Of a stretch of DNA of 48,101 bases, positions 2,878 through 27,905 are shown one piece after another. The number at the start of each line of letters is the position of its first letter. The first letter of the stretch is position 1. The notes under the pieces are model-generated. The model was not told where the DNA came from, searched no databases, and worked only from the letters and a program-made list of their open reading frames with translations. The translations under genes were made by a program, and so were the position numbers. This stretch comes from Candidatus Magasanikiibacteriota bacterium (GTDB lineage Bacteria; Patescibacteriota; Patescibacteriia; Magasanikbacterales; UBA922): positions 1 through 48,101 of the forward strand of contig CAILTG010000077.1 in NCBI GenBank assembly GCA_903837125.1, in the 5' to 3' direction.

Positions 2878-2887
2878 AATGAGAGTT

Positions 2888-2963: not shown

Positions 2964-3081
2964 TCGACAAACCAATTACAGTATAGCATTTAAAAAAAAC
3001 AAAAACAAACCCCTTTTTACAGGGGTTATTTTATCGTACTTTATTAACTTTAAAAACTTTATGAACTTTACAAACTATCGC

Positions 3082-4365: not shown

Positions 4366-4374
4366 ATAATTTTT

Positions 4375-5979: not shown

Positions 5980-6016
5980 AAATAAAAATTATTTCCACTT
6001 CGCTATTTTAACATTA

Positions 6017-6385: not shown

Positions 6386-6819
6386 AATAACTTTTTTACC
6401 AATTTTTTTACCATAATTTCTTGAATTTTAAACATTTTTTCTTTAGCCTTTTTTTGCTGATGATCATAACCCAACAGATGTAACACCCCATGCACCAACA
6501 TCCTTACCATTTCTTCTTGAGAAGTTACTTGATATATTTTTGCTTGACTAACTATTTGTGAAGGGCAGATAAAGATATCACCCAACTCATTTATTTTTAT
6601 TTCATTATTAGCAAAACCAAAAGATAATACATCAGTTACCTTATTTTTTCCACGATATTTTTTATTCAATCTCTGTATTTCCTTAGCACTAACCAAAATT
6701 ACGCTTACTGTCCCCTGCCTTTGCTGTAAATTCTTTAAAACAAAAAAAACTATTTTTTTAATCTTTATTTTGGAAATTATCTTTCCTGCAGTTATTAACT
6801 CATAAACATTGCATTCCAT
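6382..6819 (-). CDS. ybeY: Endoribonuclease YbeY (rRNA maturation factor)
   Basis: TDVLSF and HGVLHLLGYDHQ zinc motif. Confidence 0.95.
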   Translation of the reverse strand: MECNVYELITAGKIISKIKIKKIVFFVLKNLQQRQGTVSVILVSAKEIQRLNKKYRGKNKVTDVLSFGFANNEIKINELGDIFICPSQIVSQAKIYQVTSQEEMVRMLVHGVLHLLGYDHQQKKAKEKMFKIQEIMVKKLVKKLL

Positions 6820-6829: not shown

Positions 6830-7981
6830 TTAAATCGTACTACTAACAGAAGTACTAGAGACTGATGGAACTACTACTGGCTGTAAATTGTTGACTGAAG
6901 AACTACTAAGAGTCGGCTCTAAAACCATTGGTTTTTGATCGGGTACTGTGGCGGAGAGCAGAGAGGAACGAAAACTATTTACCATCATTTGCATAAGATT
7001 ACGATAAAAGATAGAGCCACTGTTCACTGGATGATAAATTAAGACATAAACTTTTTTATCTTTTTCAAAATAAGTTACCAGTTTATCCAAACGCTCATGA
7101 CCCTCTTCTTGAAAACGATTAGTATAAGAAATTAAATCTGTATAATGTTGTCCTTTGGCCATTCGGGCAAACCAATTGGCAAAATTCTCCCCTGACTCTT
7201 CTTGATAAGTTTCAACTGAAATAAAATCTCCATTGGCAGCGGTAAAAATCACTTCATTCTGTGTTGAATCAACAGCTGCCGGCAACCAATTCGCTGGATA
7301 ATATATTCGATAACTCCAAACTGAATTCACATAATCCTTAACTAAACCAGAATCTATTATTTTAACCGGCGCAAAACCCAAGGGATTATATAAATTATTT
7401 ACTTCTTGTCCGTCATAATAACCATCACCATCAGTATCCCACTTTCCCGGATCAGTTCCCAAAACTGTTTCCTCAACATCATTTAAATTATCATTATCTG
7501 TATCCACACTATTAGCTGAATTAATTTCTGGAAAGGACAAAGGTAACTCATTTAATGATGGAGCATTACTGGCGGTGCTAGAAACAGGTACAACAGTTTC
7601 TGGCGTTTCAATAACCGGGTTATCCGTAGGGATAATGTTATTTGTTTCAACTATAGTATTTTTTTGAACCACTGGTTGAATTGTTTGTTTATTCTTATTC
7701 GCTAGATTTATATAATACCAAGAACTCAAAACCAAAAATAATATCACCACCCCTGCCAAACCTAAATACCAAATCTTTTTATTTTTTAGCAGGGCACCGG
7801 TTGGAACACCAGCATCAACCAAATCTCCAATAATCTTTTTTTCTTTATTTTTTTTCAACACCATTGATTGATAATGAACTACTGGATCTTTTCCACCATA
7901 AAACTCATCAGGAATTACCTGAATTTTTAAGTTACTATCTTTTTCATCTTCTTCTTTTACTTTCTTTTTAAATGGCCACAT
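6830..7981 (-). CDS. Single-TM protein with thrombospondin type-3-like DxDxDG repeats
   Basis: Start taken at ATG 7981 (MWPFKKKVKEEDE); TM IWYLGLAGVVILFLVLSSWYYI; DTDNDNLNDVEETVLGTDPGKWDTDGDGYYDGQEV. Confidence 0.85.
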   Translation of the reverse strand: MWPFKKKVKEEDEKDSNLKIQVIPDEFYGGKDPVVHYQSMVLKKNKEKKIIGDLVDAGVPTGALLKNKKIWYLGLAGVVILFLVLSSWYYINLANKNKQTIQPVVQKNTIVETNNIIPTDNPVIETPETVVPVSSTASNAPSLNELPLSFPEINSANSVDTDNDNLNDVEETVLGTDPGKWDTDGDGYYDGQEVNNLYNPLGFAPVKIIDSGLVKDYVNSVWSYRIYYPANWLPAAVDSTQNEVIFTAANGDFISVETYQEESGENFANWFARMAKGQHYTDLISYTNRFQEEGHERLDKLVTYFEKDKKVYVLIYHPVNSGSIFYRNLMQMMVNSFRSSLLSATVPDQKPMVLEPTLSSSSVNNLQPVVVPSVSSTSVSSTI

Positions 7982-8009
7982 AATAATTATATATAGCAAA
8001 CAAAAAATT

Positions 8010-8843
8010 TTATATTGTTGAAGTGGTGGATGTAGGTGGTTGAAACAATTTACCAGCACCAAGTGGATTATAACCACTCTTTACCTCTACTCCATCGGCA
8101 TAGCCATCACCATCAGTATCAGTTTTTAAAGGATCAGTTTTCCAAACATTCACTTCATCGCCATCACTCAAACCGTCACCATCAGTGTCCCAATTTTTTG
8201 GATCAGTACCTAGTTTCACTTCTGTGGCATCATCCAAACCATCGCCATCAGTGTCTACTGTTTCTCCAAATAAAACCTGACTGTCATTTGAATTAGATAC
8301 TGTTTCAGTACTTGAAGAAACACCAGAATCAACAGCCACTGGTAAAACCACTTGGGCTGATTCGTCATTAGTACCCAACTCAGGAACAGTAGTAGTTGTT
8401 TCATTAATATTATTAAGTTGATCTACTGGCTTATTTTGACCCTCTATAACTTGTCCACCAAATTTTTGATAAGCCCACCAGCCTCCCCAAATTACTCCCA
8501 AAATTACTAAAATCACCACTATTACCATTAACACCTTGGAAATAATTGGACCTTTAACTTCATAAGTCTCCGACACCGCTGGATTATCTGTCTCCCTTAC
8601 ATCTTCAGGCATTATTTTATATTGTGGCGCAGGTGGAGTTGATATTATTGGAGAAGCCGTTTTGGATGGTTGTTTAGGTTTTAAGACCCCCACCCCCAAA
8701 GCTGTTTTTAATTCAGCTGTTTCCTCTCCTCCACTTTCTTCTTCCCGATCGTCTATTCTTGCTAAAATATCCTCTGGTTCGCCCAGTGGTAAATTCGGTG
8801 GTGGTAATCCCGGGCCATTTTGAATTGATTGATCATCAAACAT
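8010..8843 (-). CDS. Single-TM protein with thrombospondin type-3-like repeats
   Basis: TM VLMVIVVILVILGVIWGGWWAY; DTDGDGLDDATEVKLGTDPKNWDTDGDGLSDGDEVNVWKTDPLKTDTDGDGYADGVEVKSGYNPLG. Confidence 0.9.
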   Translation of the reverse strand: MFDDQSIQNGPGLPPPNLPLGEPEDILARIDDREEESGGEETAELKTALGVGVLKPKQPSKTASPIISTPPAPQYKIMPEDVRETDNPAVSETYEVKGPIISKVLMVIVVILVILGVIWGGWWAYQKFGGQVIEGQNKPVDQLNNINETTTTVPELGTNDESAQVVLPVAVDSGVSSSTETVSNSNDSQVLFGETVDTDGDGLDDATEVKLGTDPKNWDTDGDGLSDGDEVNVWKTDPLKTDTDGDGYADGVEVKSGYNPLGAGKLFQPPTSTTSTI

Positions 8844-8887: not shown

Positions 8888-9331
8888 CTATTTTTTTCCT
8901 GGCCCAAGCGGATTATAACCGCTCTTCACTTCCACACTATCGGTATAGCCATCGCCATCAGTATCAGCTTTTAAAGGATTGGTGCCTAAAATTACTTCTT
9001 TGCCATCGGCTAAGCCATCACCATCAGTATCAGCATTCTTAGGATCAGTACCTAATTTTATTTCAATACTATCAGCCAAACCATCATGATCAGTATCAAA
9101 ATCTTTATAACCATCTAAACCATATTTTTTATTTTCTTCAGCCGTTAAGCCATTAATAATTTGTACTGGTCTTATTGCTTTTACAGTGGTGGTAGTCACC
9201 ACATTAATTTTTCCAGACTCAACTGGTATCTTAACAACATTTTTTGTTTTCAAAACAACATAAACAAAAATAGCAACAACTATTACCAATATCACTGCCA
9301 CTAAAATAATTATTTTTTTTCTGTTAAACAT
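8888..9331 (-). CDS. Single-TM protein with thrombospondin type-3-like repeats
   Basis: TM KKIIILVAVILVIVVAIFVYVVL; DTDHDGLADSIEIKLGTDPKNADTDGDGLADGKEVILGTNPLKADTDGDGYTDSVEVKSGYNPLG. Confidence 0.9.
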   Translation of the reverse strand: MFNRKKIIILVAVILVIVVAIFVYVVLKTKNVVKIPVESGKINVVTTTTVKAIRPVQIINGLTAEENKKYGLDGYKDFDTDHDGLADSIEIKLGTDPKNADTDGDGLADGKEVILGTNPLKADTDGDGYTDSVEVKSGYNPLGPGKK

Positions 9332-9376: not shown

Positions 9377-12300
9377 TTATGGGTAGGGAGTAAATTCCTT
9401 TACACCGGCAAAATCAGAAACTAATCGTCCGTTAGAACAGCTTCCATTGGGACAATCAGGGAAAAAAGTGCCATCAGCTTTTTTATATTGAACATCCTGA
9501 CGCTGATATTTACCACTAGCAACATTTTTTACTAAATTAAATACATGCCAATATTGATCTCCGGCAGAAAACCCTTTATCATTATCAGCCTTACTAAAAG
9601 TATATGTTGAAGTCGGACCAAAAACTGAATACTGTTCATCTTGGCCCGGATGAAACTCATACACATCCACATACAAAGGAAAATTAGGCTGATTACGATA
9701 TTCGCCAATTGGTGTTATTTTAGTGCCTGATAAAGCCCCAAACTGATCCACAGAAAATGAATACGTTCCGGTGGCATTTCTCGTATCAATAATAAATCCA
9801 TCAACATAATTAACTTGGTCTACCTTAGCAAATTTATAAGGATAAACATAAATTCCACCATAATTATAATGAAGATCACCACAGCCAGTGGGGGTAGAAC
9901 TAGCAAAATTAGCGTAATTACACACTGCACCATCAAGAGCAGCCTGCGAAAGATTCACTGGATAATAAGCAAATATTTCATCATTTTGCACATTACCATA
10001 AAATTCTTCCTCTCTTTTTACACCAACACCGGGAGCATATCTCACTACCACTCCAAAAACACCCTCAGGCATAGCCCGAGAAATTACCAGTTCTTTACTT
10101 ATTTTAGGAGATTCACCATTTACTTGATAAGGAAAGAAATCTCCTTTTAGCCTCAGAGAAGAAGAATTGGCATTATAATCAAAGCCATTATTTGATGGAA
10201 AAATATTATTATAATTAAAATACAAGAAATACTCGTCTTTACACAATTGATTTGTTTGCAAACCACGAAAATTACTTTCCCCCACTTCTAATCCTAAAAG
10301 AGAATTACCATACTCTGGAGGTACCATAGTGTTAAAAAGACCAACATTTCTACCTAAATAAGCATTAAAACCTACTGGTGGAAATTTTCTATACAAGCCC
10401 ACAGTATAATTATTATTATAATAATATTTCCAATATTGAGGTAAAGTAGGGTCTACCAAATCACCATAAAAAGGATTCAACAAAGTAATAAAAGGCTTAC
10501 TGGGAATATTCTCTGCCGACTTACAATCCACACAATTGTCTTGCTCACTTAAACAATTTGCAGAACAAGAATATGCATCTTTGTCGTTACATTTGCTTGG
10601 AAGTTGAGCAACCGGTCCACTAGCCCCTTCTCCATAAGAATGAACCACTGTACCATCAGCGTTTGTATCACAAACCTCATAACCATGGTCACCCTTTGTC
10701 ACATCTCCCATATCATCAATCACTCCATTACCGCAAAATCCTGTTGGATCAACTGTTACCACTTTTTTGCAATCAAAAGAACAATAAGAACAAGATTTGT
10801 TATAGCCGGATTTACAAGCCACACCATTTTGTGAACCATTATCACAAACCTCAGGATTATCAGTACTAATGTCCACACCTTCCACAATGCCATCACCACA
10901 AACCTGAGGCAACGGAGTTTGACTAGTACATATGGCGCTACAAGTGCTGGTAGGTGTACCATTATCTTTACCTTTATCACACTGCTCACCAGACTCGCGG
11001 TTCCCATTGCCACAAACTGCTAAATTAATTTTATTAGTGCAATCACTATTACAAGTACTGCCTGGTTTACCATTATTTAAGCCCTCATCACATTCCTCAT
11101 AAGGATCATCTTTGTGATTGTCTCCACAATAACCACCTGGCTTTTGACAATCCCAAGCACAAGATAAATCTTTATAATAATTATAAGACGCCCCAAAAAT
11201 TTGATGAGCGGGTTTAGGAACACAGGGACCAAAATCAGAAGAAGTAGCAAACCAATCTAACCAGTCGCTAATAATAGAGAATTTATTTTTAGATAAAATT
11301 TTATTAACATCAGTCGGAACCTGACAATCATCATTTGTTTTACATAATATTTGTGGATCATTTTGACAAACTTGCCCAGAAGTTAAATAAGTTGTATCAA
11401 GAGCGCGACTAACCAGATTATGATAGAAAAGACAGGAATATTCACCATTACAACTAGTGGTTTCTGCTTTTCCTCGATCAGACGATAATACATCTCCAAA
11501 AAGTAAACGGGTAGATAAATCTTTTGCATTACAAGCAGAGGCTTGTAAACTATCAGAAGATTTTTCCCACTGTGTTGTTCCTTTTAAAGAAAAGGGCTCT
11601 TTATACCTGGAAGATTGTTTATAAGCAGAGGCGATGTTGCTATACCCCTCATCAAAATGAAAACCCAGTAACAAATCACCAACATTGGGATCAGAATAAG
11701 AATGCTTTGCTCCTTGTTCATAATTATTCTGAATACTATCACTACTCAAGTCATTGCTATAAATTCTAAATTCATCAACATCACCTTTGGTAAACAGACT
11801 ATTTCCAGTGGAAACAAATCCTCCAAGATAAATTGAACTGGTTGTTAAATCAATGTTTATTGAACCACCTCCAACAACACCATTCACATAAAGAGTACCT
11901 TGTTGTCTAATAGAATCATAAGCAAAAGCTAAAAATGTCCATTCATTCTCCCCTATTGTATTTAAACTCTTTAAATGAATAGTTGAGGTATTAGAATTTA
12001 TTTGTGAAGCAACATCAATATTTAACTTATTATCTGTAGTATTTTTATAAGTGGTTATAGAAAGTTTTTTAGCAGGTTGATTTTGGTCAATAATTGTCAA
12101 TAATTGATTTTTTGGATGCCCAACAATGTCAGTTAATTTAACCCACATTTCAATAGTAAAATTTTTAGGCATTTCAAATTCACCACCATATTCTGCATAA
12201 TCTTTAGAACCAGAAAAAACCAGAGCTGATGTGCAGTCAAAATTTTCTGAACATACTCTACTTGAAACATTGGTACAAAAACCTACAGACTTTCTATAAT

Positions 12301-15300
12301 TAACATAAACATTATTAATTGGATGAATAGTTGGAGAAGAAACAGCTTTAAAAGTATTTTCACAATATTCAAGCGGTTTACCAAGGTCTTGATCAATTTG
12401 GCCATTACCACAATAACCACTGAACAATCCTAGACAATCAGTTGCACAATGTCCATAAGTGCCATTTTGCGCGCCATCATCACATTTCTCGCCTGGTTCT
12501 ACCAAACCATTTTTACAGGTGCTTAAAGACTTACATTCACCAAACTGCCAACGGCACAAATTATCACAATGTTCACTGCCAAGAACATAACCAGGAACAT
12601 CTGAACATTGGACAATATTTGTCACATAACCCACACATTGACTTGTTAATTTGGGGAACCAAGTATCATTAACTTTGCCAACGCAAGCAAACCTCGTTCC
12701 TATTCCGTTTGCACCAAAATAATTATTTATAAAATCACTTCCTGTTGAAGTTACTACTTTCACAGCATAACCACTTCTCGTAAGTTCACCACCAAATAAT
12801 CCTCCGAGTTGAATTTCATTAGCTCCTAAATAAGTAGCAGTAGATTGGCAATCAGCATCAGTATCGCAAGAAAAATATTCAGTCTCTTTTGAATTAGCAT
12901 CTGGATTTTTAATAATACTCAAATCAAGCAATTTTAAGTCATCCCCATCTTGCTTATCAACAGTACAAAATGATGTTTTCAAACTGTGACGATAATGTTC
13001 ACTTCCATTTATAATAGTTGCCTCATAATAACCACAACTATCATTATTAATACAAGTTGAAGGTGCAGGAAGTACTTCTGATACTCCCAGACTAGAAGTA
13101 ACATAGCAAGTACCATATCTACTAACAACAACCCCCCTACTAGAGGTAACTGAAGAACCTGGCGGATCACAATCCTCACCTACCTGAACTATACCATCAC
13201 CACACTTACCCACAAATGGACTATAAGATTGTCCTGGTGTGCACCATGGATCAGTGGAAAAATGATCAGGGTTCATTACATAATTACCCACCACCTCAGT
13301 ATCACTTTTGGAAAAATACTGTAATGGAGTATGCAGAACATAATTTTCAGCTCCTCCAGGGGTGGTGGTACCTACATATTCGTATTCAGAAACACTGGAA
13401 TAAACCGGACAAGAATAAGTGGAGCTAGCCGCATTCCAACAAGTATTAGGATCGGCTTTAGGATCGCTACATTTTATCCAATTATCAATTGGATCAATTT
13501 TATTTAAATGCAAAATATTATACCAAGAGGCCCATTTGGAAACTGTATAACCTGGAATAAACGTGCCAGCTGCTAAATTTGGACTCTTAGTACCATAACC
13601 TTCCAAATTTTGCATGGCAGTTTTAATATTCGGTAAAACAGTATTTATATCTGTATAAAATTTGGTTCGAGAATTAGAACAAATGCCATTATTAGTATAA
13701 ATTCCATTAGCATCGGTTTTGGAAGTACCAGAAACCAAGTCATGACAATCCCAATCAGTTTTACAAGCATCATCAGAAATAATAGCCCGAGTGGAAGAAG
13801 GCAATATCTGTCCTATTACCAAATGTGGTGTGTCAGTGGACAAACAATAATTAAAATCTTCAAGATTAGTATTAAATTTCCAAGAATTTATAAGTTTTGT
13901 GAAAACCGCTTGAGCTTCTTGGCTAGCCCCACTACTCAAACCTAATTGATAAATATCATGAGTAAGTGGACTGCCTGTATAATGATAATTTAAAGCACTA
14001 ATATAATAATTTCGGCCATCAGTTATCACATCATCACCATTATAATTACCATTGTCAATTTTCCCGGATTGCATACTGACGGTATTAGAAAAATGCTGAT
14101 TATACCAACTTCTGGCACTTTGAGAACTATCATTACCATTGCTATCAAGATTCTTAAAAATCTGCAAACCAATAGCGTCACCAGTAGAAGTGCTAAATAA
14201 TAAATAGCGTTTTTCGGTGTCTGGAGTTAAAGCTGAAGAAAAAGTAGAAGCAGCTAAAACAGCACCCTCACAAGAATTAGTTATGGGTAACCAAGGCGCT
14301 GTTGGAAGGCAAACTTCCGAAAGATCAGTAAGACAATCAGCATCTGTATTGCAAGATCGATAATCTTTACTATATTTAGGAGGAAAATCAAAATCGTCTG
14401 CTTTTCTGCAAAATTTGCCAGTTGTTGAAAATAATAATTTGCAATTATTATCACTCAAAACCTGAGCAGATCCTTTCTCCGGACAATTAGCATTAAAACC
14501 TGGCGCTGGAGGACCACCATTAATCCAAGGCATATTATAAGCTGGAAGACAATCAGTATCTGTATTGCAAATAGCGCCACCAAGAAGGCAAACTCCTGAC
14601 TGTGCTACCACATTTTGCTTGGTAACATCCAACAAGGTAAACAACGGCAAATCGTCATCAGTGGTATCTGAACTTCCCGCATCAGCACAATAACTTAAGC
14701 TAAAATTATAATCATTATCTTTAAAAGGAAAGTTTGGTAGCGCTGGCCATGGATTATTACAAAAATAAGCCATTAAATCGGTGGTACCAGTAAAAACTGG
14801 CAGTTTGGTAGCAGAAATATCAGCATCTACCACGGCTTTGGCCACAGCAATTTGTTCGCCCTCCAAATTTCTCACGCCGATAATCACCTTATCAGTATTG
14901 GTAGGAGTGCCTGTCAAAGGAATGTTAAAAATTGGACTATTCTGTGGTGCCCATTCCCAATACCAATGATAAGCTGGCGTTGGCACAATCTGCTGACCAT
15001 TGTCACTTTCAGTTATAGCTTGAAAAGAAGAAGTAACATTAGGTTTTTGGAATAAAAACTCACCAGGCTCCACAGTAACCGCTCTTAATTTACAAATTTT
15101 ATCACTGGTATTAAAAAGCCAAATATCATCTAAAGTGCTAGTGGTGTCTTTTCCTCTAATTCCCACCCCATTAATATCAGTTATTCCGCCTTTGCCACCT
15201 CTTAAGACTACTGCATAAGTAGAGGTACTGTTTAATAAATCATTAATATACACAGCCACAGTAGAAGAAACTGGCATGGTGGTAGAAGCCACACCATTAA

Positions 15301-18300
15301 CCATGCTCCAATGATCTGTAACTTTATAAGTCGCGGCCACTTCTCCAGTACACCAAGTATAATTTGTAAAAAAATTTTTATCTAAATAGGTAGCCCAAGT
15401 TGGTTCACCAAACAGCCAGGCAAAAAACGATTTTATATAATGCCAAATTTTATCTAAAAATCCCATTGGAATTGAAGGATGCTTTAAGGAATCAGACAAA
15501 CCCAAAGCACGATTAACTAGATTAGTAACATCCGTGGTGGTAGCATAAATTGAAATTAAACAATCATAAGTTGAATAATTATGCCCGTTGGCAATAATAA
15601 TATTATTTTTTAAACTGTTAGGATCAATTCTTTTATCAAAATCAACACTAATAAAAGTATTGCGGCAAACCAAACCAGCGCCGTATATACTTGCACCATC
15701 TATTGGATATTCAGACTTTCTTTCTGGCCTAGCTGAACAACAAGAGTTTCTGGCCACACCCCAAGCATTGGTTGAAGAGGCATGATTCATTTCCATGTCT
15801 GTAGGTAAACAATCGTTATAATAACCATAAGCATCTTGAATATTATTTTCTTGATGTCCACATTGCAAATGATAAGTAGAAGTGCCAGTAACATTTTTGC
15901 TCATGAGCGTGGTAGAAGTAAACACGATTCCATTAGCAGTTTTTCCATAGATAATAGTGGTGTTGGCTTTGGCAGTGGTAGTGGCTTCTAAATAATTAGC
16001 ACCTTCTTGTGGCGACCCGCCACCTACAGCCGTAGCTACCTGAATCGGACCTTCACCAAGCGAGCCTGTTGGTTGATGATCAAATTCACACGCACCAAAT
16101 TCTCCTGAGCTCTTAATGGCATCACCACACATTGTTGAGGACGGACTAGCCAATAAAGAAGAACCAGCTAAAGTACAATCATTGGCACAACCAGCAGTTC
16201 CTGGGGTGCAATAAAAACCAAAACTAGAATTTTTTATTTGACTGTTGGGATCAGCTTTTGTTTCTTCACATAAATTATTCAAAACACACCAATCAGAACA
16301 AAGTGCTAATGAAGAAGTAGCTACACTAATTGTAGTAGAAGCACTTGGATCATTAGGATCATTGCCAGTTAAAATTCGTAAATGATGCCCATCAATAATC
16401 TCGCACTCCTCACCTGCTTCTATTTTACCATTACCGCAAACACTTTGAGCTTGGGCACATTCTGTTGGATAAAGAGAAGAATGATCTGCTTGCATACACC
16501 AATATTTGCTCAAAGGCACACCAGTATGCAAACAATGATTAGTACAACTTAAATTACTTTTAGCAGTAGTAGTTACTAAAGCAGTATCACAAGTTTCACC
16601 CCAAGTCACTCCCCCGCTACCGCACCAAGAAATACTAGTATTCCCCAAAGGCGGAGTTTGTGAAGAACCTTTCCACAAACATTTATCATTACAATAAGCT
16701 TTTTGAGTTGGGTTTCCTGGATCGCACATTTCTCCTGCAGTGCTACTCCACTGACCATCACCACACAAACCCAAATTTGCAGTGGAAGTGGTAGAAGTAG
16801 CTTTAAGATTTCCTGGACGTAAACAATTTAAATTACAACTCACACCGGCAATTTCTCCAGATGCGTCAATATCACAATCTTTACCCGGTTCGTCAGCATT
16901 ACCATCGCCACAAAGTACTGGCACTGAACCTCTAGGCACATCTGCACCTTTTAATAAACAACTTAAATTACAATAAGGATGCATGCTGGTAATTGGCGGA
17001 GCAGGAAAATGAGTAATGCTGGCCACAATATTACCAAAAGGTTTAGTAATATCCCAAATCCAACCATAATTCCAAGGGTTTAGACGTTGACCACTGGCAT
17101 TACACATATCTGGAGCGGTTCGGGGAATTGAGATGTATTTATTGCGATGGCCCACAAAATAAGCAATAAATGGATCTGGCTCTACTGCCACATTCTCAGC
17201 GATACAATAACCATTGACTACTTTAGTTCTAAATTTCCAAGTAAAATCTTCCAAAGGTTTTCCTGGATCAATGGCACCAGTGTCTGGATTAACTCTACCA
17301 AAAGATCTCATTGAACCAGACATAGTGTGAGTTGGGTCTTTACTACTAACAGTCACTCTATACCAAGTATTTTCATTAAGCGGCAGACCACTAACAGTTA
17401 CTTCATACTGCATTGGATCATCTTTGCCAAACTGATCATCTAATATTGGATGATAACCAGTGACTGAATCACAAGTTTCATCAATACATTGATCAACAAT
17501 AAAGGCGGCCAAGCCATAGGTGGAAGTCATCATGGCCCGACTAAATTTCACGCCAATTGTGGCATTGGTACAGGCCTCGGTACATAGAGGCCATTCATCT
17601 ATTACGCGTGGCGGACCCAAATCAATCTTCAAAGTGCTGGTGGCTTCAATAGTACTAGTGTTGCTGTTCTGTACTAATTTGGTAACTACAAAACTGTCTA
17701 TAACACCACGTAATGATTGATTTCCACCCACAGCTCCACCCTCAAAATAATAATTACCGGAAATTTTACCAACAACTTGATTGCCATTAAGCACAACACT
17801 ACTAACAACCACCCCATTCTTTACTAAACTTAAATTACCTGATTCATTTTTTTGAATTAAATATTCTCCTGTTGAATTAGTATTGAGATGTTCTAAAAAA
17901 TTAGAAGTACCATTATTATAAGATTCCCGGTAGTTAAAATAACGATTCTTTAATTCATAAGTACTTGAAGTGTAAACATCACTTATATAAACATCAGATC
18001 CATCACTCAAAAACAAGCTACGTCTCACCATCCAATCTTTATCAGCATTTTGAGAACCAATATTAATAATAGTGGAGGAAGATAAATCATTAAGTTCATA
18101 AACAATTTTTAAAGTGTAAGAAGCAAAAGTATTAAAATCTCCACCAACTAAAGTACTAGTAGTGATAGGGGTTGTTAACGGCTGGCCATTATTAATATTC
18201 TTTAAAACATCAACTGTTTCGACATATGACAGTCCTGTGGTGGTCGCTAAAATGGTTACTCCATATGGCGCATCTTGTAAAGCTGTGGCTGTACCGCGAC

Positions 18301-21300
18301 TACTTCTGTAATATGGTGACAAAGGTGAGGAAGTGGCGGTGGCAGTATCACGATTACTGGTGTTCCAGGCCCAATTGTAACTATCCACATTCAAAACAAT
18401 ACACTCTTGATCACCTCTACCCCAAAGAAAATAATAAAATAATAAAGTTGGCTGCCAAAAATCTTTTAAGGGACCCAAATTATGAGTGGTGTGTTCAGTA
18501 GGATTCATGAAAGCGTCTTTTAATTCACAACGCTTGTTAGTAGCCCCGGTTTTAAAATCATAATAATAAGCAATACCACCGCCCGGATAGTCTTTTAAAG
18601 GACGGGTAACGTCTAAATTAAAAGATTTCTGCATTGTTTGGCCGGCACCATAAATTGTTTGCAGAGTGGAAGAAATACTGCCAGCCAGTGTTACCCGATA
18701 CCAAGTATTAGCAGTCAAAAGTTTTTGGGGAGTGGCCGATGAATCAGCTTTAAATATTTCCAATAATGTACTATTACCTAAAACTAAACTTAATTGACTT
18801 CCATCAACCTGATTAGTGTAAGTTCCACAAACTGGTTTATCTCCACCACCACATTTATAAACCCTTACTGTACTAGTATTTATAGAATTAACATTAATAC
18901 CGGCCGTAAATTGCAAAGAAATTTCGGCATTAAGACAAACATTATCTCCCCCACGCCAATTTTGCCACGGTACTGGCGAAGGATATTGATTGTCAAATCC
19001 GCCTGTAAACCAATTGGCCTGGTCACAATGTTCTAACACTCTAGGAAGATAAGGAATTCTGCCAGTGGTAAAACGCCAAACATAGCCGGCTGATTTAGTT
19101 TGCCCGGCACAAGCTGTAGTATTAAGGCGCCAAATTCCCATATCCAGTCCTTCAGTACAGCACTGATAGGCTGAATTTACTTTCTTACCGTCTGGTGCAA
19201 TTGAAGAGGGTAAATTGCAATCATCTACAACGTAATCATAATCATTACCAATTTCTCCTTGTGAAACAATCTTAATGGGATTTTTTCCTTTGACCATAGT
19301 GTACCTTGTGACTAGATCCACTGGAATAGCCGTATTAATCAAGGTATTACTATCACTGGTTGGAAAAATAACTGAAGCGCCATTCTGATCTTTATAATCT
19401 TTAGAATTCAACCAAGTAAAAACATTGGTAAGAGCAGCATTTTTCCAAAAGAAATAAACTATTGGATTGGTTCCAAAATTAATACCTTTAATTGCCAAAA
19501 AATTACCGGTTGCCAAAGGCGCCGGGCCGTGGCTAGGTTCAATCGCACAAATGCCAGGCAAAGGATTTCCTTTTCTGACAGTAAATGGAGTATCACCATC
19601 AGATTTAAATTTATTCTGATCTCCACGTACCAAAGTTACAAATTTTTCCAATAAATCTAAACTTTCTTGACTGCCTTTGGTAAATTGCAATTTATTAACA
19701 TTTACGCCTACCCCACCGTACCTTACTGTTCCGGTTGGCGTAACACTAGATGGTTGTCCGCTTCCTGGATTGGTAGTTGTAGAATAAACTAACCCGACAC
19801 TATCAAACAACCTTAAACCACTACTGTCTGAATCTATTTTTATAACTTGATTAGTAGAAGTGGAAATTTCTTTGATAACAGCAAACTCACCTGGATTTAA
19901 GGTATCTTTAGGTGGTCCGCCATAAAAACTTCGGTGTAAAACTCCACCAGGGTCTTTTTCATCAAAAATTGAAAATCGATATCCCCCTCCTCCACTATAT
20001 CCACTTGGATCCGTTACTTCATCTTTTTGAAAACGAAAACGTTCAGTTTTGGCGGTGATACTGGGAAGATTTTCTATTTTAAGATCAATAATATAGTGCC
20101 ATTCGCTACTATCCATTGCATATTTTCCTTGCGGGTCGGAAATTACCACATTAGAATCAACTGGAATAATATTATTACTTAAATAAAAACCGGGTAATTT
20201 ATCCGTTAATTTAAGAAAATCAAACGGCAAAACGCCACCTGTCAACTCTGGAAAACTATTCCGAACTAATTGCACAATTACTTGATTATCATGCCAAGCA
20301 TCACCACAATAATCTGGCAAGGTAGTGGTGGCTCGCACACAACCAGCACCACAACTTTCACCAGCTTTAGCTGTAAAATAAACTTGACCAACACTTTCTC
20401 CAAAATTCCGACCATGAATAGTAATAAAACTACCAGGTGTGGACGAAACCGGATCAATGCGATCAATTTCCGGTTTAAGAGCATCAATATTGGTTAAAAT
20501 AGTAAATGGCACTTTATTACTATCTTGATTCGCCCCTGCATGAACATAAACCCCTACGTCTCCGGCTTGCAAGCCAGCTGGAACTTCACTCCTAATTAAA
20601 CTCTCTGTCCAACCATAAATTGACGGAGTAAAGCCACCAAAGTTCAAATTGGCACCAGTAATTTGTGTGGGTCCAAAACCCTTACCAACAGCAATGGTGG
20701 AAGTGCCAACTACACCTGAATGCGCGCAAGTGCCAGCCACATACACATCACACAAGCCCGGTCGCCAGGTAGTATTTTTGGTAAACAAACCATTTCCCCC
20801 AGGCAACAAGCCCCAGTCATTAACTAATGGATCATTATAAGTGGTATCATCATAAGTTTTAACACCAACAGTACCATTTAATTTAACAGGAAAAGGATAA
20901 TTTACTTGCAACCTTATTGAACTGGTAGAATCTACTTTAAAACCCTTCACCAAATCATCTGCTGGTATTTCTACTACTACCCAATGATCATGCCAAGCTG
21001 GTGCATTCGTTCCACTACAACTAACACATTTAGCCACTTGTGCCACCACTGGTTTATTTTTATCATCATTCGTAAAAAAAGTGACACTGCCTACATTACC
21101 TTCTCCAAAATTTCTACCTTTAATAGTCAGCCAATTGCCAGTGGCACCATCCATTGGGCTAACCTCTTCTATTAAAGGATAAGCTTGACAGGTTTTATTT
21201 GTACCGTCAGTTTCTGAACTAACACATTTTAAACTATAAGCACAATCCAAATTAGTTTTACACGGTTCACCAACCCCATGAGTACAACCATCACCTTGAT

Positions 21301-23365
21301 CAGCAATTGGGCCTTCACCTTTATCTAAGTCCAAAATGCCATTTGAACAATGCTCTGGCAAAATTCTAAAAGTTGTAGTAACCACTGAACAATTATGATC
21401 TATATCACAAGCTTTTAAAGTAGCCAAATAACTTTCTGGAGTAGCAACATCCCCCACCAAGCCATATGGGTAGGCAAACTGGTAAGTACCACCAGTATCA
21501 TTTGAAGTTTCCGAACCAATATTTATTGACGGACCATCATAATAATCTTCTAATTGCTGTCCATCACTAATTCTCTGAATTTTAAAATTGGCATAACCAG
21601 CACCACTGTCATCAGTAACATGAGCATGAAATTGATAAAAACCACGTCCGGCTGCCAAATCATGATACGTGCCCACTTCACCATTAATATCCAAGCCCAA
21701 AGGAAATTGTGGTGGAGTAGTGTCTTTAACAAATTCCCTTTCTGCACTAGCATTAGTTATTCTTTCAACATTAAAAATATTACCCTTATTATTTCCAGCA
21801 CTAGAAATATCATTAACTATATTTCCACTTTGTTCATCAAAATTCCAACCTGCCACTAAATTATTTTTATCGGGAAGTAAATAAGAATATTTTCCTTTAC
21901 CATCACCATATAAACTCTTGAAATCACTACTTGTTAAAACTTTATTAAAAATTAACACTTCATCTATACCGCCATTGAAAAAATTTGACCAGGTAAAATA
22001 AGCGCCAATGGACGAAGTTTTATTTTCTACTGGCATTACTGAATCTAGATGATTGTGAACAGCAAATTGTTGACCGTTTACATAAAATTTTATTAATTTG
22101 TTTCCATAATCATGGCTTACTCCAATATTGACCCATTTATTAGTAACCTCAGAAACAGTACCAAAAAATTGTGAGAATAAACTATTACTAGTACCATTAC
22201 CATACTGCCAAACTAAATATACTTTTTCTGTGTCTCCGCCTTTTTTAACCAAATAAAGCATGTGAAAGCCATCTTTACCTTGCGCGCCAATTTGATAAAT
22301 AACATAAGCTTGTACACTAGTAGTGGCGCTGAACTGCGGTTTTACCCAACTTGAAACAGAAACATTGCTTAAAGAAATAGGATTATTTATTTCCACGTAA
22401 CTATTTTTTCCATTGAAATTCAAATAGCTGCCACTCACTGGTATGGTATTTTTACGATCAACAGTAAATTCCCCTTTTAAAGGATATAAACCACAATCAC
22501 CAGTATCTGATTGTATAGCGACACCAGCCGCATTTTTAATACTTGAACTTACTTCAGCAGTATAATCACCAAAATCTAAACAATTAGTGCCTACACTACA
22601 CTTAAAAGTATCATCAGGCACTGCCTCAACAGCCACTGGCTTGTTACTATCTATAAAAGAAAAAGTAAAATGTTTGGTAATGTCTTCACTTCCTTTATGA
22701 ATAATAAAACTTCCTAAACTGTCGGCCGCCAGCGGCTGACTAAAAATAAAACGAATGGCCACATTATTCATGCCGGTAACACTAGGGGTTATATCAGCAC
22801 CACTAGTTACTGGAGTAATACTTTTAACTACAAAATGATCAGTATAACAACAAAACTGTTGAGTTATTTTATCTGCCTTACAAAATCCAGACCCATAACA
22901 TTCCAAAGGATGAGCAGGCGCATAACCAGGAATATCAATACAGGCATTAGGCACTCCTACATTAGCTCCAGTGGCCTCGGCCAATTTATTAATCACAAAT
23001 TGCGCAATAGCAAACGCACTCAAAATTATGGCTAAGCCAATCACCCCATTAATAATTATTTTTTTAGCCTTGCCCACTTTTTCTTCATCACCGCCAGCAG
23101 TCATGTAAACAAAACCACCATACAACACAATGCAGAGCGCCAAAATTCCCAAAAAGCCTAAAACTGCTCTGATAATCCGGGCAATTATTAGTCTAATATC
23201 ATCACCACCCAAACCTAAAGTTTGACCGGTTTGATTTAAACCAAATGTTAGCGGAGTGGCAGCTTTAACTGTTTCTGTATAAAACAAAAATCCCGCACCC
23301 ATAACCAGAGCTAGTAAAAACAAACTTAATATTTTTTTCATTTTCCTTGACCGCAAAAAATTCAT
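9377..23365 (-). CDS. Giant (4662 aa) surface protein: T4SS-pilin-like N-terminus, LamG x2, IPT/TIG, SbsA-Ig-like and DUF4215-like Cys-rich repeats
   Basis: Uninterrupted ORF. N-terminus has signal peptide plus two TMs IIARIIRAVLGFLGILALCIVLYGGFVYMTAGGDEEKVGKAKKIIINGVIGLAIILSAFAIAQFVINKL; repeated CGNG/CGDGxxExGExCD motifs; LamG-like YLNFNGKNSYVEI..SVSSWVKP. Confidence 0.93.
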   Translation of the reverse strand: MNFLRSRKMKKILSLFLLALVMGAGFLFYTETVKAATPLTFGLNQTGQTLGLGGDDIRLIIARIIRAVLGFLGILALCIVLYGGFVYMTAGGDEEKVGKAKKIIINGVIGLAIILSAFAIAQFVINKLAEATGANVGVPNACIDIPGYAPAHPLECYGSGFCKADKITQQFCCYTDHFVVKSITPVTSGADITPSVTGMNNVAIRFIFSQPLAADSLGSFIIHKGSEDITKHFTFSFIDSNKPVAVEAVPDDTFKCSVGTNCLDFGDYTAEVSSSIKNAAGVAIQSDTGDCGLYPLKGEFTVDRKNTIPVSGSYLNFNGKNSYVEINNPISLSNVSVSSWVKPQFSATTSVQAYVIYQIGAQGKDGFHMLYLVKKGGDTEKVYLVWQYGNGTSNSLFSQFFGTVSEVTNKWVNIGVSHDYGNKLIKFYVNGQQFAVHNHLDSVMPVENKTSSIGAYFTWSNFFNGGIDEVLIFNKVLTSSDFKSLYGDGKGKYSYLLPDKNNLVAGWNFDEQSGNIVNDISSAGNNKGNIFNVERITNASAEREFVKDTTPPQFPLGLDINGEVGTYHDLAAGRGFYQFHAHVTDDSGAGYANFKIQRISDGQQLEDYYDGPSINIGSETSNDTGGTYQFAYPYGLVGDVATPESYLATLKACDIDHNCSVVTTTFRILPEHCSNGILDLDKGEGPIADQGDGCTHGVGEPCKTNLDCAYSLKCVSSETDGTNKTCQAYPLIEEVSPMDGATGNWLTIKGRNFGEGNVGSVTFFTNDDKNKPVVAQVAKCVSCSGTNAPAWHDHWVVVEIPADDLVKGFKVDSTSSIRLQVNYPFPVKLNGTVGVKTYDDTTYNDPLVNDWGLLPGGNGLFTKNTTWRPGLCDVYVAGTCAHSGVVGTSTIAVGKGFGPTQITGANLNFGGFTPSIYGWTESLIRSEVPAGLQAGDVGVYVHAGANQDSNKVPFTILTNIDALKPEIDRIDPVSSTPGSFITIHGRNFGESVGQVYFTAKAGESCGAGCVRATTTLPDYCGDAWHDNQVIVQLVRNSFPELTGGVLPFDFLKLTDKLPGFYLSNNIIPVDSNVVISDPQGKYAMDSSEWHYIIDLKIENLPSITAKTERFRFQKDEVTDPSGYSGGGGYRFSIFDEKDPGGVLHRSFYGGPPKDTLNPGEFAVIKEISTSTNQVIKIDSDSSGLRLFDSVGLVYSTTTNPGSGQPSSVTPTGTVRYGGVGVNVNKLQFTKGSQESLDLLEKFVTLVRGDQNKFKSDGDTPFTVRKGNPLPGICAIEPSHGPAPLATGNFLAIKGINFGTNPIVYFFWKNAALTNVFTWLNSKDYKDQNGASVIFPTSDSNTLINTAIPVDLVTRYTMVKGKNPIKIVSQGEIGNDYDYVVDDCNLPSSIAPDGKKVNSAYQCCTEGLDMGIWRLNTTACAGQTKSAGYVWRFTTGRIPYLPRVLEHCDQANWFTGGFDNQYPSPVPWQNWRGGDNVCLNAEISLQFTAGINVNSINTSTVRVYKCGGGDKPVCGTYTNQVDGSQLSLVLGNSTLLEIFKADSSATPQKLLTANTWYRVTLAGSISSTLQTIYGAGQTMQKSFNLDVTRPLKDYPGGGIAYYYDFKTGATNKRCELKDAFMNPTEHTTHNLGPLKDFWQPTLLFYYFLWGRGDQECIVLNVDSYNWAWNTSNRDTATATSSPLSPYYRSSRGTATALQDAPYGVTILATTTGLSYVETVDVLKNINNGQPLTTPITTSTLVGGDFNTFASYTLKIVYELNDLSSSTIINIGSQNADKDWMVRRSLFLSDGSDVYISDVYTSSTYELKNRYFNYRESYNNGTSNFLEHLNTNSTGEYLIQKNESGNLSLVKNGVVVSSVVLNGNQVVGKISGNYYFEGGAVGGNQSLRGVIDSFVVTKLVQNSNTSTIEATSTLKIDLGPPRVIDEWPLCTEACTNATIGVKFSRAMMTSTYGLAAFIVDQCIDETCDSVTGYHPILDDQFGKDDPMQYEVTVSGLPLNENTWYRVTVSSKDPTHTMSGSMRSFGRVNPDTGAIDPGKPLEDFTWKFRTKVVNGYCIAENVAVEPDPFIAYFVGHRNKYISIPRTAPDMCNASGQRLNPWNYGWIWDITKPFGNIVASITHFPAPPITSMHPYCNLSCLLKGADVPRGSVPVLCGDGNADEPGKDCDIDASGEIAGVSCNLNCLRPGNLKATSTTSTANLGLCGDGQWSSTAGEMCDPGNPTQKAYCNDKCLWKGSSQTPPLGNTSISWCGSGGVTWGETCDTALVTTTAKSNLSCTNHCLHTGVPLSKYWCMQADHSSLYPTECAQAQSVCGNGKIEAGEECEIIDGHHLRILTGNDPNDPSASTTISVATSSLALCSDWCVLNNLCEETKADPNSQIKNSSFGFYCTPGTAGCANDCTLAGSSLLASPSSTMCGDAIKSSGEFGACEFDHQPTGSLGEGPIQVATAVGGGSPQEGANYLEATTTAKANTTIIYGKTANGIVFTSTTLMSKNVTGTSTYHLQCGHQENNIQDAYGYYNDCLPTDMEMNHASSTNAWGVARNSCCSARPERKSEYPIDGASIYGAGLVCRNTFISVDFDKRIDPNSLKNNIIIANGHNYSTYDCLISIYATTTDVTNLVNRALGLSDSLKHPSIPMGFLDKIWHYIKSFFAWLFGEPTWATYLDKNFFTNYTWCTGEVAATYKVTDHWSMVNGVASTTMPVSSTVAVYINDLLNSTSTYAVVLRGGKGGITDINGVGIRGKDTTSTLDDIWLFNTSDKICKLRAVTVEPGEFLFQKPNVTSSFQAITESDNGQQIVPTPAYHWYWEWAPQNSPIFNIPLTGTPTNTDKVIIGVRNLEGEQIAVAKAVVDADISATKLPVFTGTTDLMAYFCNNPWPALPNFPFKDNDYNFSLSYCADAGSSDTTDDDLPLFTLLDVTKQNVVAQSGVCLLGGAICNTDTDCLPAYNMPWINGGPPAPGFNANCPEKGSAQVLSDNNCKLLFSTTGKFCRKADDFDFPPKYSKDYRSCNTDADCLTDLSEVCLPTAPWLPITNSCEGAVLAASTFSSALTPDTEKRYLLFSTSTGDAIGLQIFKNLDSNGNDSSQSARSWYNQHFSNTVSMQSGKIDNGNYNGDDVITDGRNYYISALNYHYTGSPLTHDIYQLGLSSGASQEAQAVFTKLINSWKFNTNLEDFNYCLSTDTPHLVIGQILPSSTRAIISDDACKTDWDCHDLVSGTSKTDANGIYTNNGICSNSRTKFYTDINTVLPNIKTAMQNLEGYGTKSPNLAAGTFIPGYTVSKWASWYNILHLNKIDPIDNWIKCSDPKADPNTCWNAASSTYSCPVYSSVSEYEYVGTTTPGGAENYVLHTPLQYFSKSDTEVVGNYVMNPDHFSTDPWCTPGQSYSPFVGKCGDGIVQVGEDCDPPGSSVTSSRGVVVSRYGTCYVTSSLGVSEVLPAPSTCINNDSCGYYEATIINGSEHYRHSLKTSFCTVDKQDGDDLKLLDLSIIKNPDANSKETEYFSCDTDADCQSTATYLGANEIQLGGLFGGELTRSGYAVKVVTSTGSDFINNYFGANGIGTRFACVGKVNDTWFPKLTSQCVGYVTNIVQCSDVPGYVLGSEHCDNLCRWQFGECKSLSTCKNGLVEPGEKCDDGAQNGTYGHCATDCLGLFSGYCGNGQIDQDLGKPLEYCENTFKAVSSPTIHPINNVYVNYRKSVGFCTNVSSRVCSENFDCTSALVFSGSKDYAEYGGEFEMPKNFTIEMWVKLTDIVGHPKNQLLTIIDQNQPAKKLSITTYKNTTDNKLNIDVASQINSNTSTIHLKSLNTIGENEWTFLAFAYDSIRQQGTLYVNGVVGGGSINIDLTTSSIYLGGFVSTGNSLFTKGDVDEFRIYSNDLSSDSIQNNYEQGAKHSYSDPNVGDLLLGFHFDEGYSNIASAYKQSSRYKEPFSLKGTTQWEKSSDSLQASACNAKDLSTRLLFGDVLSSDRGKAETTSCNGEYSCLFYHNLVSRALDTTYLTSGQVCQNDPQILCKTNDDCQVPTDVNKILSKNKFSIISDWLDWFATSSDFGPCVPKPAHQIFGASYNYYKDLSCAWDCQKPGGYCGDNHKDDPYEECDEGLNNGKPGSTCNSDCTNKINLAVCGNGNRESGEQCDKGKDNGTPTSTCSAICTSQTPLPQVCGDGIVEGVDISTDNPEVCDNGSQNGVACKSGYNKSCSYCSFDCKKVVTVDPTGFCGNGVIDDMGDVTKGDHGYEVCDTNADGTVVHSYGEGASGPVAQLPSKCNDKDAYSCSANCLSEQDNCVDCKSAENIPSKPFITLLNPFYGDLVDPTLPQYWKYYYNNNYTVGLYRKFPPVGFNAYLGRNVGLFNTMVPPEYGNSLLGLEVGESNFRGLQTNQLCKDEYFLYFNYNNIFPSNNGFDYNANSSSLRLKGDFFPYQVNGESPKISKELVISRAMPEGVFGVVVRYAPGVGVKREEEFYGNVQNDEIFAYYPVNLSQAALDGAVCNYANFASSTPTGCGDLHYNYGGIYVYPYKFAKVDQVNYVDGFIIDTRNATGTYSFSVDQFGALSGTKITPIGEYRNQPNFPLYVDVYEFHPGQDEQYSVFGPTSTYTFSKADNDKGFSAGDQYWHVFNLVKNVASGKYQRQDVQYKKADGTFFPDCPNGSCSNGRLVSDFAGVKEFTPYP

Positions 23366-23372: not shown

Positions 23373-25685
23373 TTACTCTCCAAAAATATAACTAACAGCT
23401 GATGTTTCCAAACTGCTAGTACAAAAAGCTGTACTGGATACTGCCCATGTACCACCAAATGGTTCAGAAGTTTGTGCACAGCCCGTGTCCAAATGTTCAT
23501 TATTTGTTACTCCCACACAATTTATGTCTTGAACTACAGTGCCATCATTTTCCTCTTTATATTTACAAGTATAAGAAAACCCCTTATCACTCACACCTAA
23601 TGGTTTGGCTGGCCCACGGCCAGGGTATAAACATTGTTGATTATTGGATTCTATGGTACTGGGAATAATTGGAAAATAATAAATATCTGGACGAACTAAT
23701 TTTTTATCAGCACCCATAAGTAATGGTCCAAATTCTCGATGTGGCATTAAAAGTTCAGTAGCCGTACCATTATTAATGCTCTCAGTCCAAACACTAAAAC
23801 GTTTATAAAACCAAATTGAAGCATCTGGACAATTATAAGGATTGGGTTGATGGCCACAATATTCTTCTAAAGTAGTGGTATTAAAACTGTCATAAAGCAT
23901 TTCTTTACTAAAATAAACTTCTAAAGGCGCATTATAGGCCACTTCTTCAGTATCAATAGGTGGGTTAGCTTTTTCAATAATCGGAACCGTACGATCAATT
24001 TGATTACGCACAATAAATTTCCACCAATAATTATCATAATTTTCTTCAGTATTTGGTGGTGTTTGTCCGTGGCCATTTATAATATGCAAATTACTACCTG
24101 AATATAGATTTGGTTTGTGCGGATTGTTTACTACAAAATCAGGTTTCATATTTGACCCATTATCCAAAGCATTAGCACAGGTATCCACCACCCCAGTAAA
24201 AGGATCAGCTTGAAAAGAAGTGATGGCTCCAGTTAATTCTGCCGTGCGCACCAATATTTCAAAAGATGAAGTACAGTTGGAATCTTGAGTATTACTGCAA
24301 TTAACTGACAAGCAATACATAGGATTGCCACAACTATTTGTGCCACATTGCTCTTGAGGAATAAATTCTAATGATTGATAGCCATTACTTATTTTCCATT
24401 CACCAGCCACTGTAGTAGTACCAAAAATTATATTGGTAAAACTACTGGTAGCATCCAACACTCCTTGAGCGGAAACTGGATCTACTGGTTCACTAAAATC
24501 AATACGTACAATTTCATTACGGCTAATTGTTTTCCCAGACTCTGGCACTACTCGGGAAACATAAGGAGGAATAAAATCAAGATAAGTTCCAGTTTGAAAA
24601 TTCCAAAAGTAAAAAGGTGGATGCTGATTTTCAAAAATTCCCACCGGATTATTATCTTTTGGCTGTAACTGTAAAATATTCTTGTTTAACTTTACAGTAT
24701 ACCAAACATTTTCTGTGTCACTGCCCAAATATTCACCAGGCAACGGACTAAAAACAAAAGTATAAGCATGACGTTTGTCGCCATCTTGATAAGTAGTGCG
24801 TGCCAATCGTGGAATAAAATCAGTTTTAGTTAAATTTGCTTCAGAAGTAGTGGTAGATTTATAAATCATTACTGGCAAATTTGCCACAGTAACTAAATCG
24901 TAAATCAAATGATCACAAACTTTATCGGTTGAGCCGGCAGGAACAATGCAATCACCATAATAAGGTTCATAAATTTCTTTTACATCTTTTCCATCCCACA
25001 ACGTAGTAGTATCAGTTTTAAAGTAACAAGTGGTAGTCGGACCAGAAAAATTAGTTGTCCAACAATCTTTATTAGTATTCTCTATAATAGAGGAAGGATC
25101 AACTGGCAAACCAAAAGTAACTATTATTGAAGTGTTACGCGCCACATTGGTTTGATCACGCGTAGGATAGTGATCTTTAACTACTCTGCCCAAAGCCCCA
25201 CTACCAAAAAATGAAGGTGGGTTTTCCAAACCAACTCCGCCCTCACCACCACCAATGCCCGTGGCCCTAGATAAAGAATTAATTATAAACTGGGCAATAG
25301 CAAAAGCACTTAAAATTATAGCCAACCCAATAACAGCATTGGTTAAAATTCTTTTTCCTTGAACAATCTTTTCTTCATTACCCTCCGAAGTCATGATAGT
25401 GTAGCCCGCATAAATAACTAAAACTACAGCTATTACTCCCAAAAAACCCAAAATTGCCCGGATAATTTGGGCAATTATGAGTCTAATATCCAAACCACCC
25501 AAACCAATATTCTGACCTACTTGTTGCAAACCAAAAGAAACTGGAGTATTTTGTTCCGTGGCATTAACTTGAGCCGAAACCGGAAGACTGGTTGCCAAAA
25601 ATAAAAAAATTGCCAGAAAAATAAACATTACCCTGCAGGCAGTTTTCTTATTTTTTTCAATAAATTGTAGAATCCGTGGAAGCAT
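23373..25685 (-). CDS. 770-aa surface protein with T4SS-pilin-like N-terminus and SbsA-Ig-like domains; paralogous N-terminus to the giant protein
   Basis: IIAQIIRAILGFLGVIAVVLVIYAGYTIMTSEGNEEKIVQGKRILTNAVIGLAIILSAFAIAQFIINSL; ends 7 nt before the giant gene's ATG. Confidence 0.9.
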   Translation of the reverse strand: MLPRILQFIEKNKKTACRVMFIFLAIFLFLATSLPVSAQVNATEQNTPVSFGLQQVGQNIGLGGLDIRLIIAQIIRAILGFLGVIAVVLVIYAGYTIMTSEGNEEKIVQGKRILTNAVIGLAIILSAFAIAQFIINSLSRATGIGGGEGGVGLENPPSFFGSGALGRVVKDHYPTRDQTNVARNTSIIVTFGLPVDPSSIIENTNKDCWTTNFSGPTTTCYFKTDTTTLWDGKDVKEIYEPYYGDCIVPAGSTDKVCDHLIYDLVTVANLPVMIYKSTTTSEANLTKTDFIPRLARTTYQDGDKRHAYTFVFSPLPGEYLGSDTENVWYTVKLNKNILQLQPKDNNPVGIFENQHPPFYFWNFQTGTYLDFIPPYVSRVVPESGKTISRNEIVRIDFSEPVDPVSAQGVLDATSSFTNIIFGTTTVAGEWKISNGYQSLEFIPQEQCGTNSCGNPMYCLSVNCSNTQDSNCTSSFEILVRTAELTGAITSFQADPFTGVVDTCANALDNGSNMKPDFVVNNPHKPNLYSGSNLHIINGHGQTPPNTEENYDNYWWKFIVRNQIDRTVPIIEKANPPIDTEEVAYNAPLEVYFSKEMLYDSFNTTTLEEYCGHQPNPYNCPDASIWFYKRFSVWTESINNGTATELLMPHREFGPLLMGADKKLVRPDIYYFPIIPSTIESNNQQCLYPGRGPAKPLGVSDKGFSYTCKYKEENDGTVVQDINCVGVTNNEHLDTGCAQTSEPFGGTWAVSSTAFCTSSLETSAVSYIFGE

Positions 25686-25718: not shown

Positions 25719-26165
25719 TTACGCCGACAATGTTTTTGAAACTATTTCTTTAACACGATTACCATCAGCTCGGCCTTTTACTTCTTTCATTACTGTGCCG
25801 ATTATTTTTCCCATTTCATTTGGAGCAATATTACCGACTTCACCAATTATCCGTTTAACTATTATTTCCAATTCAACATCACTCAACTGTTCTGGTAAAT
25901 ATTTTTTTAATAAATCAATTTCTAAATTTGCTTGATCAACTAAATCAGTACGCGCCCCGGCTTGAAAATCTTTCAAAGCATCACCAGTTTGTTTAACCAA
26001 TTGCGCCACCAGTTGTTGTACTTCTTCATCATTTAATTCACGTTTTTTGTCTATTTCTACATTTTTAATGGTAGACCAAAGCACCCGCAAAATTGAAAGT
26101 TTCTTTTCATCTCGGGCTTTCATGGCCTCAACTTGTGCTTTGGAGAGTTCTTGTCTCAAGGACAT
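25719..26165 (-). CDS. yqeY: GatB/YqeY domain protein
   Basis: 148 aa; MSLRQELSKAQVEAMKARDEKKLSILRVLWSTIKNVEIDKKREL..QL. Confidence 0.95.
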   Translation of the reverse strand: MSLRQELSKAQVEAMKARDEKKLSILRVLWSTIKNVEIDKKRELNDEEVQQLVAQLVKQTGDALKDFQAGARTDLVDQANLEIDLLKKYLPEQLSDVELEIIVKRIIGEVGNIAPNEMGKIIGTVMKEVKGRADGNRVKEIVSKTLSA

Positions 26166-26170
26166 ATTTA

Positions 26171-26416
26171 CTAATATTTTTTATATTTAGTAATTTCCTC
26201 TTCTGGCAAACGGCCAATTTTTCTTAAATATTTTGTTTTGGATACCTTCTGAATATATTCAACAGTTTGTTTATGGCGTAAATTTTTGCTTTTTTCAGGA
26301 ATGTAAAACTGAATTTTTTTTGCCTGCAATAATTTACCCGACTGTTGCCAGCGGCGTTTTACTCTACGCATGAATGATTCAAAAGATTCTCCTTTTTTTC
26401 TTTTGATTTCGGACAC
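26171..26416 (-). CDS. rpsU: Ribosomal protein bS21-like
   Basis: SEIKRKKGESFESFMRRVKRRWQQSGKLLQAKKIQFY resembles bS21; likely GTG start at 26416 preceded by GAGGAGGTG Shine-Dalgarno with 6-nt spacing. Confidence 0.7.
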   Translation of the reverse strand: MSEIKRKKGESFESFMRRVKRRWQQSGKLLQAKKIQFYIPEKSKNLRHKQTVEYIQKVSKTKYLRKIGRLPEEEITKYKKY

Positions 26417-26475
26417 ATTTTTCACCTCCTCAAGTGAAAATAATAAATTAATACGGATAATATACACTGTTCGCT

Positions 26476-27903: not shown

Positions 27904-27905
27904 AT

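Follow-up and report, generated by a model that had tools for sequence, protein, structure and literature searches.

Two adjacent genes, encoding a giant protein of 4662 aa and a smaller partner, both with a T4SS pilin-type membrane anchor, recur beside cell-division genes nearly class-wide, which argues that the giant is a conserved cell-surface part and not a one-off adhesin. The pair lies in the window, the whole 48,101-nucleotide stretch of DNA analysed here. A tiny-genomed bacterium appears to carry a 4,662-residue protein on its outer surface. In the reading that we prefer, and to which we assign an even chance of being right, the two proteins would build a pilin-derived surface apparatus or stalk that displays exchangeable binding modules. 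A preliminary description of this DNA contains neither the partner gene nor the orthology across the class, nor the location of the pair by ftsA/ftsZ.

Architecture of the giant protein

The giant gene is one frame of 4662 uninterrupted codons from an ATG, as had been described, and a chance origin is excluded, since each of the 40 loci read in other genomes holds a collinear orthologue. The encoded protein (506 kDa, pI 4.9, 3.3% Cys) has hydrophobic segments at aa 9-33, 56-92 and 100-129 and none in the remaining ~4500 residues, in agreement with the previously noted signal peptide and two helices around a charged loop, which contains the motif GGDEEKVGKAKK. Exactly three early hydrophobic segments are present in 40 of 41 giants, and every giant examined has 2-4 Lys/Arg in the loop between helix 1 and helix 2. 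Since a positively charged start is followed by three hydrophobic segments, the C-terminus would be outside with or without cleavage of the signal peptide; number and charge of the segments thus support an extracellular C-terminal region, as first proposed, over a cytoplasmic one. Neither an LPXTG motif at the C-terminus nor a C-terminal hydrophobic segment or membrane anchor is present in the sequence, autotransporter families are absent among the Pfam matches of the giant, and phage families gave no match. A disulfide-forming enzyme, VKOR, is encoded in the genome, as would fit a giant whose numerous conserved cysteines become oxidised.

Pilin similarity, which the preliminary description expected at the N-terminus as a hairpin anchor, was detected there: T4SS_pilin (PF18895) matches with 33.6 bits (cut-off 26.6), making the giant a member of this family by domain, and AlphaFold of mature residues 36-310 predicts two long helices (mature residues 22-54 and 59-97; pLDDT 85-90 over most) and an Ig-like domain. 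The best NCBIfam match to the anchor, a mycoplasma conjugation pilin-like protein, is under its cut-off, and for TrbC/VirB2 (PF04956) the giant has no match, with 16.4 bits for the partner (cut-off 27.9) and 21.3 for the best relative. Foldseek/VIA with the N-terminal model gave mainly Ig folds; as matches to the Ig domain crowd the output, nothing follows from the lack of a VirB2/TraA pilin among the matches listed. This first Ig-like domain resembles alpha-2-macroglobulin MG, CopC and S-layer Ig folds (Z 7-9.6). The model of core 2 has a pLDDT of 53; it shows an Ig-like domain of broadly similar type and, after it, a Cys-rich stretch with poor prediction, so that only about 150 residues are confident and the remainder allows no interpretation. 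A PDB sequence search with the whole giant gave zero matches at E up to 1, and PDB profile searches one weak match each for the N-terminus (E 0.14) and core 2 (E 0.005). The predicted Ig folds are of a common kind that does not show a function.

Further modules proposed earlier were largely recovered (Table 1). Both LamG stretches and the TIG stretch coincide in position with Pfam matches (Laminin_G_3 twice, E 1.3e-28, 100.5 bits, cut-off 27.6; TIG twice), and the SbsA-Ig-like module corresponds to Pfam Big_5, which is that family. The DUF4215-like assignment holds in part, as nine CGxG-type motifs are found and the family is detected in 9 of 14 relatives (E 0.001 or better), but the window giant itself is under the Pfam cut-off. 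Among these 14 scanned giants of relatives, T4SS_pilin was found in 14 (E 0.001 or better) and Big_5 and TIG in 13 each, while LamG, CBM_4_9, VWA, pentaxin and Fib_succ_major each occurred in a single one; the LamG regions of the window giant are aligned by few relatives. As the chassis domains are near-universal and the LamG, CBM and VWA types each confined to one of 14, the giant appears as a constant scaffold with changing binding modules, where ligand binding by the lectin, CBM and VWA modules is putative and deduced from the module families only.

Table 1. Features of the giant locus (positions in the window)
Feature	Position	Strand	Basis or remark
Downstream neighbours ybeY, dgkA-like, ftsA, ftsZ, nrdR	2407..6819	-	Conserved; dgkA assigned by sequence only
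TSP3-like protein, 415 aa, one TM	6830..8077	-	Under Pfam cut-off; synteny
TSP3 protein, 277 aa, one TM	8010..8843	-	Pfam; synteny
TSP3 (Ca-binding type repeat) protein, 147 aa, one N-terminal TM	8888..9331	-	Pfam; synteny
Giant surface protein (predicted) CDS, 4662 aa	9377..23365	-	ATG start, stop-free frame
DUF4215-like Cys repeats, aa about 4118-4250	10616..11014	-	Motifs in sequence; relatives
LamG-like module 2, aa about 3729-3886, accessory	11708..12181	-	Pfam/NCBIfam scan; few relatives
Conserved core 3, aa 3040-3400	13166..14248	-	Orthologue alignment
Conserved core 2, aa 1890-2330, Ig-like fold then DUF4215-like Cys repeats	16376..17698	-	Many invariant Cys
Big_5 Ig-like domain, aa 1473-1568	18662..18949	-	Pfam
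Conserved core 1, Cys motif and TIG domains, aa 700-1040	20246..21268	-	Pfam and orthologues
LamG/ConA-like lectin module 1, aa 318-480, accessory	21926..22414	-	Pfam; in few relatives
First Ig-like domain, aa about 176-303	22457..22840	-	AlphaFold model
T4SS_pilin (PF18895) helical hairpin, aa 55-124: TM1, cytoplasmic loop GGDEEKVGKAKK, TM2	22994..23203	-	Pfam and predicted helices
Signal peptide, aa 1-35	23261..23365	-	Cleavage after ...VKA inferred; A-Q/A-A type site conserved in alignment
Partner protein, 770 aa: signal peptide, T4SS_pilin hairpin, Big_5 domains	23373..25685	-	7 bp upstream of giant; Pfam
Upstream neighbours yqeY, S21-like small gene, hisS, lepB (signal peptidase I)	25719..28532	-	Conserved

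Conservation and neighbourhood of the locus

The class that carries the pair, which we take to be ABY1/Patescibacteriia, was surveyed by means of 40 loci, all in other genomes and drawn from within the family, the order and the class, where a giant (2262-5756 aa) together with a pilin-anchored partner (roughly 530-970 aa) is found in 40 of 40, a count that is not a frequency since the loci were picked for a previously seen long pilin-domain frame. The search for other pilin-domain proteins of more than 2000 aa that had been suggested at the outset was successful in other genomes of the class. At locus L103 the partner starts outside the stretch taken. Relatives, where named mostly Candidatus Magasanikbacteria, align collinearly with the window giant in blocks of about 700-1030, 1230-1670, 1900-2890 and 3040-3400, being 25-42% identical inside the family and 22-30% in the remainder of the class. 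Frequencies free of this selection come from profiles: core 1 matches 161 of the 191 genomes of the class (149 of the 166 of good quality) and core 2 matches 30 of 33 class genomes of a phylum-wide draw; outside the class, among the matches listed, essentially only the generic Cys-repeat part of core 2 is covered. Scanning genome contigs with the partner protein gave no match, while an alignment as query did give matches. Two relatives with frames of 26,099 and 14,266 aa were rejected, because masked stretches of N, 72,000 and 40,000 bases long, produce these frames (G056:C8:63987-142284 and G121:C1:501229-544027); such frames are to be discarded for length statistics. A relative of core 2 with 39% identity is located on a contig labelled candidate division WOR-1 (L150, MEUF01000010.1), which is probably mis-binned.

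That the giant is an isolated, fast-evolving adhesin or a misassembly has an apparent precedent in two other large ABY1 proteins, for which full-length homologues were not found and rapid evolution was proposed (PMC11809585), but is contradicted by the collinear orthologues at all loci and the breadth of the core matches, and is hardly credible.

Partner and giant are adjacent on one strand, and the gene order in the class is lepB-hisS-(rpsU)-yqeY-partner-giant-TSP3 genes-ybeY-dgkA-ftsA-ftsZ. Neighbours at the 40 loci, in counts bounded by the length of DNA taken per locus, are the S21-like gene (39), yqeY (34), hisS (33), TSP3 (31), ybeY (20), ftsA (17) and ftsZ (8). Three consecutive single-TM TSP3-type proteins follow the giant in most relatives, and a calcium-dependent role of these proteins together with the giant is possible. 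Further along the window, the region 29100-31130 between tRNA genes and a DUF4349 gene reaches a G+C of 0.43 and holds only small conflicting ORFs besides one 193-aa ORF; apart from tRNAs, Rfam gave no match.

The position next to ftsA/ftsZ suits a general envelope role and the stalk reading equally well. Were the giant not an adhesin but a structural part of the envelope, S-layer-like and linked to growth and division, that coats the cell and carries its modules incidentally, this would agree with the near class-wide conservation of the chassis, the fixed position of the locus and the similarity of the Ig folds to SbsC and Sap S-layer domains. This similarity, however, reflects a generic Ig fold common also to CopC and alpha-2-macroglobulin, neither an SLH domain among the Pfam matches of the giant nor another S-layer anchor was found, with a pilin hairpin as the anchor instead, the varied insertions of carbohydrate- and protein-binding modules point to binding, and neighbouring genes may simply be passed on in the same order without being linked in function, so that an S-layer-like coat is considered unlikely.

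Anchor evolution, the partner and type IV secretion

The anchor helices are constrained beyond what membrane insertion requires, since in the same 22 genomes TM1/TM2 of the giant have a mean identity of 56%, compared with 21% for the TM helix of the neighbouring TSP3 protein; the signal peptide of the giant reaches 25%. The partner carries the same domain (PF18895, 29.1 bits, over the cut-off of 26.6), and anchor identity between giant and partner is 65% in the same genome versus 51% between genomes (maximum of 53% in 500 permutations), with the own partner as the closest anchor to the giant in 27 of 40 cases. In an anchor tree, giants and partners together stand apart from small pilins (5 label changes versus 58 when shuffled), with giants and partners unseparated from each other (25 versus 27). 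Because both genes recur across the class, this same-genome likeness amounts to concerted evolution. Gene conversion contributes, as identical anchor residues of giant and partner share the same codon slightly above expectation (0.49 versus 0.42), and the elevated same-genome identity may in part be neutral gene conversion; selection for matching helices is favoured, although not proven. Over-conservation and concerted evolution suggest that the helices of giant and partner pack specifically, i.e. that the two proteins co-assemble. The initial view of the hairpin as an anchor and not a polymerising pilus therefore stands with respect to the anchor, but is too simple given helices that are over-conserved and evolve in concert with those of the partner.

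A different role, as a minor or tip pilin whose pilin domain enters a VirB2-like T4SS filament with the giant as tip adhesin, has to be weighed against the same data. Small pilin arrays of the same family exist in the genome, which has 30 PF18895 domains and VirB4-type ATPases on contigs C55 and C4, a VirB4-like ATPase is present in 179 of 191 class genomes, T4SS are known in Patescibacteria (PMC12102498), and grafted domains are displayed by modular type IV pilins (PMC8179133). On the other hand, no virB4 is located near the giant locus in the genomes read, the anchors of giants and partners split from those of the small pilins on the tree, and the small pilins of a genome are scarcely nearer to its own giant (36% anchor identity) than to other giants (34%). 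PF19044 found no match in five class genomes, of which three (G076, G087 and G187; 96-100% complete, G187 being one contig) carry giant and partner; as VirB4 is undetectable in these three, a T4SS seems dispensable for the pair, which appears independent of VirB4, although the genomes may still be incomplete. A place at the tip of a T4SS pilus is accordingly judged quite improbable.

Contig C4 (G000:C4; L123:501-10274) carries a T4SS-like cluster with a TraG P-loop ATPase, a coupling protein and a TrbC-like pilin. Its 799-aa ATPase is 99% identical to one in G040, which belongs to the same order but to a different family, so the cluster is probably a mobile element or bin contamination (estimated at 4.7%). 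Arrays of small and mid-size T4SS_pilin proteins are found on contigs C40, C84, C92 and C99 of the same genome (L115-L120), and some of these pilins have the hairpin C-terminal after an ectodomain of 100-450 aa (L115:3441-5063, 540 aa), the reverse of the arrangement in the giant.

In the preferred two-protein stalk, partner and giant would leave the cytoplasm through Sec and be cleaved by signal peptidase I; a pilin-derived hairpin would then fix each of them in the membrane, with the helices packing together. The Cys-rich Ig/TIG/DUF4215 chassis of the giant would project outside as a disulfide-braced stalk, from which inserted lectin, CBM or VWA modules could bind surfaces, most likely those of neighbouring or host cells, and TSP3 proteins may serve as calcium-dependent accessories. 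A bolder version, advanced tentatively and as less likely than not, is a class-defining envelope machine of ABY1-type Patescibacteria, in which partner and giant would be the two subunits of a T4SS-independent pilin-derived membrane assembly; this would bear stalks about as long as the cell radius, with exchangeable binding tips, and would be laid down together with the division apparatus.

Comparison with known systems

No description of this gene pair was encountered in the literature searched (open-licence papers only). The VirB2-like pilin arrays of Patescibacteria share PF18895, the signal peptide, two helices and a charged loop of GG-x-EEK type, but consist of small subunits often arrayed near virB4 (PMC12102498), whereas the giant has a conserved ectodomain of 2.3-5.8 kaa, a different locus and a dedicated partner; a T4SS-type pilin domain has apparently been re-used as the co-assembling base of a surface stalk. 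PilB and PilC of Streptococcus sanguinis follow the same design logic with binding modules (lectin, VWA) on a pilin module, although these pilins belong to an unrelated class (type IV, class III signal peptide, IPR012902), of which the most extreme case there has 860 residues (PMC8179133). PrgB-type conjugation adhesins of Gram-positive T4SS, as large surface proteins, offer an analogy only for possible cell-cell contact of a pilin-containing epibiont; they gave no sequence match in this analysis, and PMC12102498 found none of this type in Patescibacteria.

The giants of CPR and Omnitrophota are likewise very large and extracellular, with attachment proposed, but they were reported with no class-wide orthologues or as poorly conserved, and a pilin anchor, a partner or ftsA/ftsZ synteny is unmentioned in the accessible parts of the sources (PMC8080830, PMC11809585, PMC10066038). 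While giants of ABY1-type Patescibacteria have so far been treated as unconserved curiosities, the near class-wide conservation of the present giant differs from the rapid evolution which PMC11809585 envisages for two other large ABY1 proteins, and with its fixed neighbours and partner-linked anchor it provides a specific target for imaging and proteomics.
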